A stretch of DNA of 61,359 nt from Verrucomicrobiota bacterium. GTDB taxonomy: Bacteria; Verrucomicrobiota; Verrucomicrobiia; Palsa-1439. A program made the position numbers and the translations under genes. The notes beneath the pieces were generated by a model that was not told the origin of the DNA, made no database searches, and worked only from the letters and a program-made list of their open reading frames with translations. Within the stretch, counting starts at the first letter, position 1, and every line of letters starts with the position of its first letter. The stretch covers positions 152 to 61,510 of the forward strand of contig PLZV01000039.1 of the NCBI GenBank assembly GCA_003152315.1, written 5' to 3'. Shown here piece after piece: positions 5,479 through 15,135 of the stretch.

Positions 5479-5509
5479 AAAAAAAGAGCCCCGCCGTAGC
5501 GCGGCTCTT
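5479..5509 (-). terminator. Rho-independent terminator of the HU remnant
   Basis: Reading on the minus strand, a GC-rich stem (AGAGCC-GC ... GC-GGCTCT) with a TACG tetraloop is followed by seven T residues. It sits 29 bp after the TAG stop of the HU-like fragment. Confidence 0.8.
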
Positions 5510-5537: not shown

Positions 5538-5687
5538 CTACAGGCTTTCTTTGAGGCCCTGACCCGCGCTGAAACGCATGGTCTTGGAAGCCTTGATCTG
5601 GATCGGCGCGCCCGTCTTCGGGTTGCGGCCCATTCGCGCGGCACGCAACCAGATGGCCGAGCGGTTGCCAGTTCCTTCCAGACTGTT
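5538..5687 (-). pseudogene. C-terminal fragment of an HU/IHF-family DNA-binding protein
   Basis: The minus strand encodes [20 protein letters not shown] followed by [14 protein letters not shown] and TAG. This is the C-terminal arm and helix of HU proteins (GRNPxTGxxIxIxASK.xxFxxGxxLK). About 49 residues are readable; the N-terminal helices and start codon are absent, and upstream sequence is unrelated. The terminator is still in place downstream. The missing 5' half suggests deletion at an insertion boundary. Confidence 0.75.
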
Positions 5688-10006: not shown

Positions 10007-10195
10007 CCAACAAGCGCCGTGCAGCGGCTCATTTGGCATAGGTTGAAGCACGTTTGGTTTTAACCCGAATTACCCCAGCATCGCAGATAGTGCTGAAATC
10101 CGCCAGTTCATCCTCAACGGCTGCGACAGACCCGGCAGCTTTGCCATTTAAGACCAATGGGATCACTGATTTAGTTTGCCTAAACAAATCGCATA

Positions 10196-10216
10196 TTGTA
10201 TCGTACTGCGATACAA
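10196..10216 (+). promoter_or_regulatory. Perfect palindromic operator of the MarR-type gene
   Basis: TTGTATCG and CGATACAA form a perfect inverted repeat of 8-bp arms around TACTG. It ends 13 bp before the ATG of the MarR-DUF488 gene. MarR-family dimers typically bind such 16-21-bp palindromes over their own promoters, so autoregulation is the natural reading. Confidence 0.78.
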
Positions 10217-10229
10217 CTTGAAATAAACG

Positions 10230-11300
10230 ATGACTTCAAATGCACGACCGTTAAACTCACGAGTGATGGCGAGACCCAGGCAACTTATCAAGTCGCAGTA
10301 TGAAACACTCGCAGCGTTTCGTTACACGCTTCGGCAGTTTATCTGCTTCAGTGAACAGGCGGCACAGGCTGCCGGCATCACGGCGCAACAGCATCAGGCG
10401 TTGCTGGCCATCAAAGGGTTCCCTGGGCGCGATAGTGTCACGGTGGGCGAATTGGCGGAACGATTGCAGCTTCGCCATCACAGCTCCGTTGGACTGATTG
10501 ACCGGCTGGTGGCGGAGAAGTTGGTGGCACGCGCGCCGTCGGCAGAAGACCACCGGCAGGTTTTCGTTCGACTCACCAGCCGCGGCGAAAATGTGCTGGA
10601 GAAGCTTACGTCGGCCCACGAGGAACAACTGAAGCGAATTGGCCCTGGACTCAACCTGCTGCTCAAGCGGCTTGCTTGCGTCGATGAAGAGAAAATGGAG
10701 CCAATGCAATCGTGTAAACCAAACGCACACATAGGTCTTTTGCCTACTGTACTAACGATCGGCCATTCCACGCGCACGCTCGCTGAATTCATTCGCTTGC
10801 TTCGGGCACACGGTGCAACTCGCGTGGTGGACGTACGGACGGTGCCACGTTCGTGGCACAACCCACAATTCAACAAGACTTCCCTGCCGGGTTCGTTGAA
10901 GAAAGCGGGTCTGCGATATGTCCACATGCCGGGACTAGGCGGCCTGCGTCACGCTCAGCGCGATTCGCCCAACGTGGGCTGGCGAAATGCCTCCTTTCGA
11001 GGTTACGCGGATTACATGCAGACGCCGGAATTTGATCAGAGCCTCGAAGAATTGATCCAGTTGGCGAATCAAGACCGGATCGCCTTGATGTGCGCTGAAG
11101 CGGTGCCCTGGCGCTGTCATCGTTCGCTCATCGCCGATGCCTTGCTGGTTCATGGAATCCGCACGGAGGACATCATGAGTCCAACTCGCCGCCAGGTTCA
11201 TACTCTTACTCCTTTCGCCAAAGTTCGGGGCATCACAATTACCTATCCGACCGTGGCCTCACGGAGCGCTCAAAAGAAGCCATCGGCCAAACGCATATGA
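10230..11300 (+). CDS. MarR-family regulator fused to a DUF488 domain
   Basis: The protein has 356 residues. Residues 15-150 are a MarR winged helix: helical dimer segments, then QQHQALLAIKGFPGRDSVTV, recognition region LAERLQLRHHSSVGLIDRLV and wing region EKLVARAPSAEDHRQVFVRL. Residues 165-335 are a DUF488 domain with VLTIGHSTRTLAEFI, RVVDVRTVPRSWHNPQFNK and the cysteine pattern ALMCAEAVPWRCHRSLIADA. DUF488 proteins are normally separate proteins of about 150-180 residues. The fusion suggests a regulator that senses a ligand or redox state through DUF488. An alternative ATG at 10266 would keep both domains. A perfect palindrome lies 13 bp upstream. The molybdopterin oxidoreductase gene follows 36 bp downstream. 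Confidence 0.9.
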   Translation: MTSNARPLNSRVMARPRQLIKSQYETLAAFRYTLRQFICFSEQAAQAAGITAQQHQALLAIKGFPGRDSVTVGELAERLQLRHHSSVGLIDRLVAEKLVARAPSAEDHRQVFVRLTSRGENVLEKLTSAHEEQLKRIGPGLNLLLKRLACVDEEKMEPMQSCKPNAHIGLLPTVLTIGHSTRTLAEFIRLLRAHGATRVVDVRTVPRSWHNPQFNKTSLPGSLKKAGLRYVHMPGLGGLRHAQRDSPNVGWRNASFRGYADYMQTPEFDQSLEELIQLANQDRIALMCAEAVPWRCHRSLIADALLVHGIRTEDIMSPTRRQVHTLTPFAKVRGITITYPTVASRSAQKKPSAKRI

Positions 11301-11336: not shown

Positions 11337-12938
11337 GTGCGCATTCGATTGAAGACACTGTTGCTGTTGGTTTCGCCGTTCGTGCTCCTGGTTGCCGCGG
11401 CTTATTGGCAGTGGGCCATCGTCGGTCTCCCGCCGCTTCCGCACAGCTTTCAACCCCATCTGGCGGCTCAACCTCAGGGATTTCCGATATGGCTGCGCGC
11501 CACTCATTATGTGAATTTTCTCTTCTTGATTTTGCTGATCCGCAGCGGTTTGCAGATTCTCATGGATCATCCCCGGCTCTACTGGAACGTCCACTGCACG
11601 CCCCGCACGGAGTGGCTCCGGCTGACGCCAATCGAAGTGCCTCGGGATCGCGTGTGGACGGCCAAGAAGGACTCACGCTACCTATCGCCTTGGATTGGAT
11701 TGCCCGGTCGTCGGCACACGGTTGGCATGGCGCGGCATTGGCATTTCCTCAGTGCGCTGTTCTGGGTGGTCAACGGCGGAGTCTTTGTGGCCCTGCTGTT
11801 CGGCACCGAACAGTGGAGGCGTTTAGTGCCAACGTCCTGGCAAATTGTGCCGGACGCGTGGGCTTACTTCGTCCACTACGCTACTTTCCATTTGCCACCG
11901 GAGCCGGACAGTTTCCAGCACTACAACGCGCTGCAGCAACTGACGTACTTCATTGTGGTTTTCATTCTTGCGCCGCTGGCAATCTTGAGCGGCCCTTCGA
12001 TGTCGCCCGCCTTGACGAACCGGTTCCAGTGGTATCCCAGGCTGCCGGGAAACCGTCAGATTGGCCGGTCGCTGCACTTTCTGGTCATGGGCGCGTTTGT
12101 GGTGTTTCTCGTCGCGCATGTGACGATGGTGGCCGTTACGGGATTGGCTCGGAACATGAATCACATTGTGGTGGGCACAAACGACACGCGAGCAATCGGC
12201 CTGTACCTGGGAATATTGGGGCTGGCAATCGTCGTGGTCGTGAACGCGCTCGCTCACTGGATGGCGTGGAAACGCCCGCGCTTCGTCCAGCACGCCTCCA
12301 AGACCATCGTCACGCCCGTCATGAGTGTCCTGCTCGACCGCGCCGTGCCGCAAGCCGAGTTCTCCACGGAAGACATCTCGCCATTTTTCTGGGCCAACGG
12401 CAAGCTGCCCATTGGCGATGACTGGAACACACTGGCCGCCCATGGCTTCAAGGATTACCGGCTGAAAGTGTCCGGCTTGGTCGAAAACCCGGTCGAACTG
12501 TCACTGGACGACCTGCGAAGGATGAACAAGAAGACACAGATTACGCTGCACCATTGTATCCAAGGTTGGTCGGGCATTGCCCAGTGGGGCGGACTGCCCC
12601 TGATTGATTTGGTCGGATTGGTTCGACCCAAGCCAGAAGCGCGGGCCGTCGTCTTCTATTCGTTCGGCGAAGGCGCGGAAGGTGGACGGTTTTATGACAG
12701 TCTCTCGCTGGAGAACGCCCGGCACCCGCAGACCCTGCTCGCTTATGAGATGAACTCCGAATCACTCCCCGTACTGCACGGCGCACCGCTGCGATTGCGA
12801 GTCGAAAACCAACTCGGGTTCAAAATGGTGAAATGGATTCAAGCCATTGAATTTATCGAAAGCGCCAGGTCGGTCGGTAAGGGCGAAGGCGGTTACAACG
12901 AGGACAACGAATACTTCGGTGAGTTAGCCAACATATAA
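11337..12938 (+). CDS. Cytochrome b561-type membrane domain fused to a molybdopterin oxidoreductase domain
   Basis: The product has 533 residues and a GTG start. The N-terminal 300 residues hold about six membrane helices with histidines placed as haem b ligands (RATHYVNFLFLILLIRSG, RHWHFLSALFWVVNGG, RSLHFLVMGAFVVFLVAHV), as in cytochrome b561 or hydrogenase-type cytochromes. Residues 360-515 form a sulfite-oxidase-type molybdopterin domain with the Mo-ligating cysteine in TLHHCIQGWSGIAQWGG and a C-terminal GFKMVKWIQAIEFI. The fusion would let a membrane haem exchange electrons directly with a Mo site, likely facing the periplasm; the substrate is unknown. It is probably cotranscribed with the MarR-DUF488 gene. 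Confidence 0.9.
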   Translation: MRIRLKTLLLLVSPFVLLVAAAYWQWAIVGLPPLPHSFQPHLAAQPQGFPIWLRATHYVNFLFLILLIRSGLQILMDHPRLYWNVHCTPRTEWLRLTPIEVPRDRVWTAKKDSRYLSPWIGLPGRRHTVGMARHWHFLSALFWVVNGGVFVALLFGTEQWRRLVPTSWQIVPDAWAYFVHYATFHLPPEPDSFQHYNALQQLTYFIVVFILAPLAILSGPSMSPALTNRFQWYPRLPGNRQIGRSLHFLVMGAFVVFLVAHVTMVAVTGLARNMNHIVVGTNDTRAIGLYLGILGLAIVVVVNALAHWMAWKRPRFVQHASKTIVTPVMSVLLDRAVPQAEFSTEDISPFFWANGKLPIGDDWNTLAAHGFKDYRLKVSGLVENPVELSLDDLRRMNKKTQITLHHCIQGWSGIAQWGGLPLIDLVGLVRPKPEARAVVFYSFGEGAEGGRFYDSLSLENARHPQTLLAYEMNSESLPVLHGAPLRLRVENQLGFKMVKWIQAIEFIESARSVGKGEGGYNEDNEYFGELANI

Positions 12939-13878: not shown

Positions 13879-15135
13879 ATGAATGCGACATCTTTTTACG
13901 ATACCATTATTATTGGGGGCGGGCCGGGCGGCAGCACCGCCGGTGCATTCCTGGGCAAAGCTGGGCAGCGGGTATTGCTGTTGGAGCGCGAGATGTTTCC
14001 GCGATTTCACATTGGGGAATCGTTGCTCCCCTTTGGTAACGACGTATTGAAGGACAGTGGCGCATGGGCGAAAATCGATGGGGCCGGGTTCCAACGAAAA
14101 TATGGCGCGGAGTTCGTTGTTGCCAATGGTTCCCGTTGGCAGCGATTTTGGTTCGCTCGCGGCCTGGTAGCCGGGTACGGCGAGACCTTCCAGGTGGAGC
14201 GGGCGAAATTCGATCATGTGTTACTCGACCACGCGGCCAGTTGCGGGTGCGAAGTGCGCCAGGGCTGTGCCGCCAAGGTCATAACGCGAGATGGAGACGA
14301 GTGGTGCGTAAGGCTGGAACAGGGGGAAGTGCGTGGGCGCTGGTTAATCGACGCGAGTGGGCGCGATTCTTTTTTGGGACGAACCCTGGGGTTTGCGAAG
14401 AAACCGATGAATCTCACCAAACGCATCGCGGTGTACGCACATTTCAAAGGTGTGTACCGCAACCCAGGTGACGCAGAGGGACACATCACGATTGTGCGGT
14501 TGGAGGATGGCTGGTTTTGGTTGATACCGTTGGCGGAAGGAAAGATGTCGGTTGGCATGGTGCGGACACTGGAGGACTTGAAGAGGTCGGGCGGTACGGC
14601 GGAGGAGTGGTTCGCAAAGACCGTGGCTTCGAGCAGCGAATTGACGCGTCGAATGAACGGGGCGAAACAGATTGGGCAGTTTTACAAGACAAGCGACTAC
14701 AGCTATCACCACGAGCAAATGGCGATCGACCGCGCCATCATGGTGGGAGACGCGGCGGGATTTATCGACCCGATTTTCTCGTCGGGAGTACACATTGCGA
14801 CGAAGTCAGGTCAAATTGCTGCCGGATTGATTCAGCAGGCGGAGGCAAGAAAACGCGGACTGACAGTGGCCGAGCAACGGCGCTATTCCCGCGACGTGTA
14901 TCGGTACATGGAAGTGTATCGGGAGATGATTTCGATGTACTACGACAACCGTTCCTTTGAAGTGCTGATGCATCCAGAAGGACGGTTCGGTATCGTGCCG
15001 GCGGTGACCTCGATCCTGGCGGGAAACTTTCATCCGTCGTTCAAGATGTGGTGGCGGGTGAAATTGTTTCGGCTCGTTTGCGCCATTCATCGTCGCGTGC
15101 CGATTGTGCCGCGGCTAGATTATTCGGAAGCCTGA
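13879..15135 (+). CDS. Flavin-dependent halogenase-like / geranylgeranyl-reductase-family oxidoreductase
   Basis: The protein has 418 residues. FAD-binding GGGPGGSTAGAFLGKAG occurs at about residues 13-29, followed by PRFHIGESLLP, which is typical of FADH2-dependent halogenases. The central GWFWLIPL matches the GWxWxIP signature, and FIDPIFSSGVHIA matches the FxxPxxSxG motif that marks flavin halogenases. AIMVGDAAGFIDP is the second FAD motif. Related non-halogenating oxidoreductases share some of these, so chlorination of a substrate is an inference. It is cytosolic with no signal peptide. TATAAT at 13875-13880 overlaps the ATG; I do not take it as a promoter. No partner flavin reductase or biosynthetic cluster is visible nearby. 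Confidence 0.85.
   Translation: MNATSFYDTIIIGGGPGGSTAGAFLGKAGQRVLLLEREMFPRFHIGESLLPFGNDVLKDSGAWAKIDGAGFQRKYGAEFVVANGSRWQRFWFARGLVAGYGETFQVERAKFDHVLLDHAASCGCEVRQGCAAKVITRDGDEWCVRLEQGEVRGRWLIDASGRDSFLGRTLGFAKKPMNLTKRIAVYAHFKGVYRNPGDAEGHITIVRLEDGWFWLIPLAEGKMSVGMVRTLEDLKRSGGTAEEWFAKTVASSSELTRRMNGAKQIGQFYKTSDYSYHHEQMAIDRAIMVGDAAGFIDPIFSSGVHIATKSGQIAAGLIQQAEARKRGLTVAEQRRYSRDVYRYMEVYREMISMYYDNRSFEVLMHPEGRFGIVPAVTSILAGNFHPSFKMWWRVKLFRLVCAIHRRVPIVPRLDYSEA

Follow-up and report, generated by a model that had tools for sequence, protein, structure and literature searches.

A MarR-DUF488 fusion in one Verrucomicrobiota genome, probably derived from two neighbouring genes, with a predicted MarR operator upstream

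Does a polypeptide that joins a MarR domain to a DUF488 domain tell us what DUF488 does, or rather how two genes became one? The question is raised by an open frame in a 61,359-nucleotide stretch of a Verrucomicrobiota MAG (hereafter the window), for which an earlier note had proposed that fusion to MarR ties DUF488 to transcriptional sensing. The frame occupies positions 10230-11300 of the forward strand and encodes 356 aa with both domains complete. MarR_2 (PF12802) is matched at fusion residues 49-110 (1.1e-14; 54.7 bits versus a Pfam cut-off of 27) and DUF488 (PF04343) at residues 184-305 (1.4e-35; 123 bits versus a cut-off of 22.2), and both halves are conserved, so the fused frame described in the note is real. 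The MarR_2 winged helix is accompanied by a complete MarR helix pattern; the fusion scores below cut-off against every named NCBIfam MarR equivalog. The features discussed below are as follows, where L012 is the locus of Limisphaerales bog_1460, the closest relative found among the best 80 of 301 DUF488 loci.

10086-10178, reverse strand: stump of a divergent ClC channel gene (clc), lying at 10237-10329 of the window's own contig (C45) and corresponding to residues 2-32 of the L012 protein at 84% identity.
10196-10216, no strand: perfect 8-5-8 palindrome of the TTRTATCG-N5-CGATAYAA class, a predicted MarR operator.
10230-11300, forward strand: fused MarR-DUF488 gene, 356 aa; the homologue-supported start may be ATG 10266.
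10266-10692, forward strand: MarR part (Pfam MarR_2), complete to the last helix and ending at the deletion point; aligned with the separate marR genes of L012, L007 and L047.
10692-10693, forward strand: deletion junction, at which 68 bp of L012 are absent from the window in a pairwise DNA alignment.
10704-11297, forward strand: DUF488 part; ATG 10704 corresponds to the start of the separate L012 DUF488 gene, and another in-frame ATG lies at 10695.
11094-11126, forward strand: conserved DUF488 motif CAEAVPWRCHR, fusion residues 288-298, in columns invariant or nearly invariant among 38 homologues.
11337-12938, forward strand: downstream gene with a cytochrome b561-like membrane part and a molybdopterin oxidoreductase domain, a possible operon partner.

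In L012, marR and DUF488 are separate genes in the same order, 50 bp apart (marR TAA at 5492, DUF488 start at 5543). The DNA of the window is 82-84% identical to that of L012 across both genes, with a single clean gap of 68 bp that comprises the L012 marR tail, its TAA stop and the spacer. At the protein level the MarR part matches the separate L012 marR product at 82% aa identity over the blast match, and the start codon of the L012 DUF488 gene is still kept as Met159 of the fusion. L012 also encodes a full-length ClC channel with CBS domains, divergent from marR, of which the window keeps only about the first 31 codons, and L007 has marR and a divergent clc without DUF488. The simplest history that we infer from these arrangements is that clc/marR came first, that DUF488 was then placed behind marR, and that clc loss and the 68-bp deletion followed in the lineage of the window. 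Relative to L012, dN/dS is low in both halves (0.12 for MarR and 0.19 for DUF488); each is under purifying selection and so does not look decayed, though much of the divergence may predate the fusion. The fusion is probably functional, lineage-specific and derived from two neighbouring genes.

It could be argued that marR and DUF488 are in truth still separate, as they are in L012, and that 68 bp were lost in assembly or sequencing. The frame is known from one MAG contig only, and genomes of the same genus are without a homologue for comparison. The gap, however, is a clean multi-base one that removes the stop exactly and keeps the frame, with both sides uninterrupted; a frame-preserving loss of 68 bp together with a shortened spacer is unlike the typical single-base error, and no collapsible repeat was seen at the junction. 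We hold such an error to be very unlikely, and the event, though seen in one MAG, resembles neither a frameshift nor a join of contigs but a genuine deletion of 68 bp. The earlier note had coupled separate genes in all relatives with a fusion created by assembly; the genes are indeed separate in all relatives searched, but genuine deletion is the likelier cause.

The frame offers several start codons. Its second in-frame ATG, at 10266, coincides with the start position of MarR homologues (L007, L094). Further in, ATG 10695 or ATG 10704 could serve to make DUF488 mainly as a separate protein, free beside a longer MarR product. That ATG 10704 matches the L012 DUF488 start and that a purine-rich GAAGAG lies just upstream speak for this, but the distance from GAAGAG is only 3 nt for ATG 10695 and is 12 nt for ATG 10704. 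We regard predominant internal initiation as a possibility, if a doubtful one; it is compatible with, and not opposed to, the account of the fused protein that we prefer below.

If DUF488 were instead the sensory domain of a one-component regulator, as the earlier note implied, its cysteines or a bound small molecule would control binding of MarR to the palindrome. Both domains do lie in one conserved frame. Against such a role, the genes are separate in L012, and no other MarR-DUF488 fusion was found among the best 80 of 301 loci from a scan over genomes of 84,980 species, where marR stands directly before DUF488 in L012 only. A close marR homologue is present in 19 of 387 Verrucomicrobia genomes and is fused in that of the window only, and none of the 293 plasmid records matching the fusion covers 80% of it. 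Because the search for further fusions that the note had suggested returned none in these loci, genomes and plasmid records, the fusion is known from one MAG only. Literature searches that paired MarR with either DUF488 or ClC turned up no relevant paper.

Verrucomicrobia DUF488 frames of at least 280 aa were considered as further fusions and set aside: most have a different N-terminal region without a Pfam MarR match, and the remaining ones look like chance open frames. Four loci (L147, L148, L149 and L152) represent a DUF488 subtype of ~300 aa with a conserved N-terminal region of ~170 aa (KLLFL...FVPYRFGCFSF) that has no convincing Pfam match.

The palindrome reported in the earlier note is present and reads TTGTATCG-TACTG-CGATACAA (21 bp). 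Its distance of 13 bp from the start holds if translation begins at ATG 10230, but becomes 49 bp if the homologue-supported ATG 10266 is used. Even with 3 mismatches allowed, the window has no further match to it, and with 0.23 in shuffles a single palindrome is only moderately improbable on this measure. It is convincing because it is conserved upstream of marR homologues: ATCG-N5-CGAT occurs upstream of 17 of the 23 marR loci (window included) versus 0.175 in shuffled upstream regions. Aligned sites follow TTRTATCG-TANTR-CGATAYAA, in which the inner positions served to find the sites and the independent evidence is that of the outer positions and spacer only. Of six proteobacterial plasmid loci inspected, four also have a site of the ATCG-N5-CGAT type ahead of marR. 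Judging from this conservation, the palindrome is very probably a MarR operator.

Operator-like TTRTATCG-N5-CGATAYAA sequences were observed upstream of marR in L007, L012, L047, L094, L096, L099, L100, L107-L109, L165, L166, L169 and L170, and the loci with such sequences span Verrucomicrobia and Alphaproteobacteria. In several divergent loci (L012, L007, L047 and L094) the site lies between TTGAC(A)-like and TATAAT-like hexamers read in the clc direction. The first hexamer of this pair reads TTCAAG in the window, which would fit promoter decay after clc loss. The genome to which the window belongs contains 31 near-matches to the operator at up to 2 mismatches, compared with 7 for the control. 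The window has a second, small palindrome at 10170-10184 (TTTAG-N5-CTAAA), which L012 does not share and which was taken as chance.

The genes that adjoin these marR homologues suggest what the operator originally served. A clc gene adjoins marR in 12 of 22 relatives, an HPP membrane-protein gene (confirmed by Pfam) stands beside it in 4 others, and an annotated chloride channel is next to it in 5 of the 6 plasmid loci. Because the palindrome is conserved before marR genes that usually lie beside clc or HPP, we take it to be the operator of a MarR-ClC/HPP module, older than the fusion and existing independently of DUF488. Most loci with the operator and marR have no DUF488 beside them, which again counts against a sensory role for that domain. 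In the window, by contrast, all that remains beside the MarR half is the clc stump, and the genome contains no HPP gene; the MarR half and operator descend from the module, but the window has ceased to be a working example of it. Other ClC genes of the same genome are located on contigs C57 (47% identical), C53 and C23, and on C57 no match to the operator was found with up to 2 mismatches allowed. The predicted operator, which ties MarR to ClC and HPP genes across Verrucomicrobia and Proteobacteria, is a useful lead, and no description of TTRTATCG-N5-CGATAYAA tied to these genes was found in the literature searched.

The cysteines of CAEAVPWRCHR, correctly noted as present, are Cys288 and Cys296 of the fusion. 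The earlier suggestion that they sense redox state or a small molecule does not hold up: neither varies in an alignment of 38 DUF488 sequences, of which 37 are unfused, and C-A-E-x-x-P-W-R-C-H-R-S is common to the entire set. Because unfused proteins have them too, the two cysteines belong to the signature of the family and are no redox switch peculiar to the fusion. The credible operator and two cases in which MarR and DUF488 genes occur together do lend something to the sensory proposal. In G385, a YeaO-type DUF488 gene begins 42 bp after a gene for the same MarR type, which has the palindrome, and the Paraburkholderia plasmid pBN1 has DUF488, HPP, MarR and ClC genes within about 5 kb, with MarR and DUF488 within 3 kb. 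Given the separate genes in L012, the single known fusion, the operators mostly without DUF488 and the shared cysteines, we consider it highly improbable that DUF488 acts as the sensor, and the tie to sensing drawn from the fusion is not borne out.

That DUF488 genes recur near this MarR type may nevertheless be more than accident, although the cases are few. One reading is that the DUF488 product makes or removes the ligand of MarR, as a pair in L012, G385 and pBN1; the fusion would then be a single-chain enzyme-regulator in which the DUF488 site tunes repression. We consider this unlikely.

The explanation that we favour, and think probable, is that the protein is a MarR repressor which regulates its own gene and to which DUF488 is attached as a passenger, formed by in-frame fusion of two neighbours in what was likely a single operon. 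The first of these genes would have encoded a MarR repressor of the ClC/HPP-adjoining type, predicted to bind TTRTATCG-N5-CGATAYAA, and the second DUF488, followed in the same putative operon by the molybdopterin/cytochrome-b oxidoreductase gene. The deletion took out the marR tail, stop and spacer, and the divergent clc was separately cut to its stump. Most likely the fused protein, acting as a MarR dimer, still binds the inherited operator and represses its own transcription, and this repression would extend to DUF488 and perhaps to the oxidoreductase gene until released by a ligand of the MarR domain. DUF488, on a flexible linker of about 20 residues, would keep its ancestral job, probably enzymatic. 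The structure model of the whole fusion supports this in so far as residues 150-168, between two folded parts, form a low-confidence linker. Several points weigh against this passenger account. The MarR half of that model is poor (much of it at pLDDT about 40-60, from a shallow alignment), so that the model was used for the linker only, from which the apparent independence of the domains is read. A promoter scan found no sigma-70-like promoter above threshold at the window site, and the fusion comes from one MAG. Moreover, the occurrence of this MarR close to DUF488 genes in two further lineages hints that the two work as a pair and are not just neighbours.

What DUF488 itself might do was approached through its structure and its gene neighbours. 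The model of the DUF488 half is confident (pLDDT 87); in it the first cysteine ends a strand and the second lies in a loop just before a helix, a placement typical of active sites. A sequence search of this half against solved structures gave nothing credible (best E 0.57). Foldseek matched the model to the protein tyrosine/dual-specificity phosphatase fold with probability up to 1.0, but TM was only about 0.4 and the best E 1e-3, and in VIA-align laforin (Z 9.0, 131 aligned, rmsd 3.3) was tied with diphthine synthase and CbiL (8.4-8.7). Because these weak matches tie with unrelated folds, neither a phosphatase-like nor a tetrapyrrole-methylase-like class was assigned. A defence role was also set aside: the PADLOC matches, PDC-M45B and PDC-M19A, are only candidate defence families containing DUF488, and nothing else found points to defence.

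In nine relatives DUF488 has a molybdopterin/cytochrome-b gene, most of it present, in its vicinity, as does a paralogue in the genome of the window. This unfused paralogue, on contig C11 at about 23-26 kb (L002), is 71% identical to the DUF488 half and is flanked by a YeaO-type DUF488 gene and the molybdopterin/cytochrome-b gene, so that the DUF488-oxidoreductase pairing occurs twice in the genome. HhH-GPD-type DNA glycosylase genes were observed beside or close to stand-alone DUF488 genes of several phyla (L027, L052, L067, L076 and L085), at a distance of 15-21 bp in L067 and L076. Phosphoketolase, acetate kinase and transaldolase genes recur beside stand-alone DUF488 genes of the subfamily found in the window (L015, L022-L025, L035 and others). 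Collectively, the molybdopterin/cytochrome-b, glycosylase, transaldolase, phosphoketolase and acetate kinase neighbours do no more than hint at a stress or carbon-metabolism setting. DUF488 genes recur in the vicinity of this MarR type as well as of molybdopterin/cytochrome-b genes, a second useful lead that offers a concrete setting for work on their function. The fusion is a weak clue to that function because it comes from one genome and originated from neighbouring genes.

Comparison with known systems places the fusion among autoregulated, often divergent MarR repressors of the MarR, OhrR and HpaR type, with which it shares MarR_2 and a palindrome beside its own start; a divergent partner gene is likewise present in its relatives but was lost in the window. 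It differs from these repressors by its C-terminal DUF488 and by matching no named NCBIfam equivalog at cut-off. MarR proteins encoded beside ClC/HPP in Acidiphilium pACRY02, Mesorhizobium MesoLj131a2 and Paraburkholderia pBN1 are homologous (45-52% identical), and plasmid loci of this kind have the same ATCG-N5-CGAT operator in 4 of 6 inspected; unlike in the window, their MarR is not fused, ClC is intact and DUF488 is absent or separate. Stand-alone DUF488 (PF04343) proteins of the CAE..PWRCHR type are 62-88% identical to the fusion over the domain and keep all signature residues, but comprise roughly 170-200 aa without a DNA-binding domain. An archaeal ParB-CTPase-fold protein has been described as a CTP-binding DUF488-HTH fusion (PMC12704722). 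It likewise combines DUF488 and a helix-turn-helix in one polypeptide, but it is of the ParB type and not described as MarR. Elsewhere in the window, positions 13879-15135 encode a protein, matched best in NCBIfam by CmlS at a score far below cut-off, that resembles FAD-dependent halogenases and geranylgeranyl reductases.
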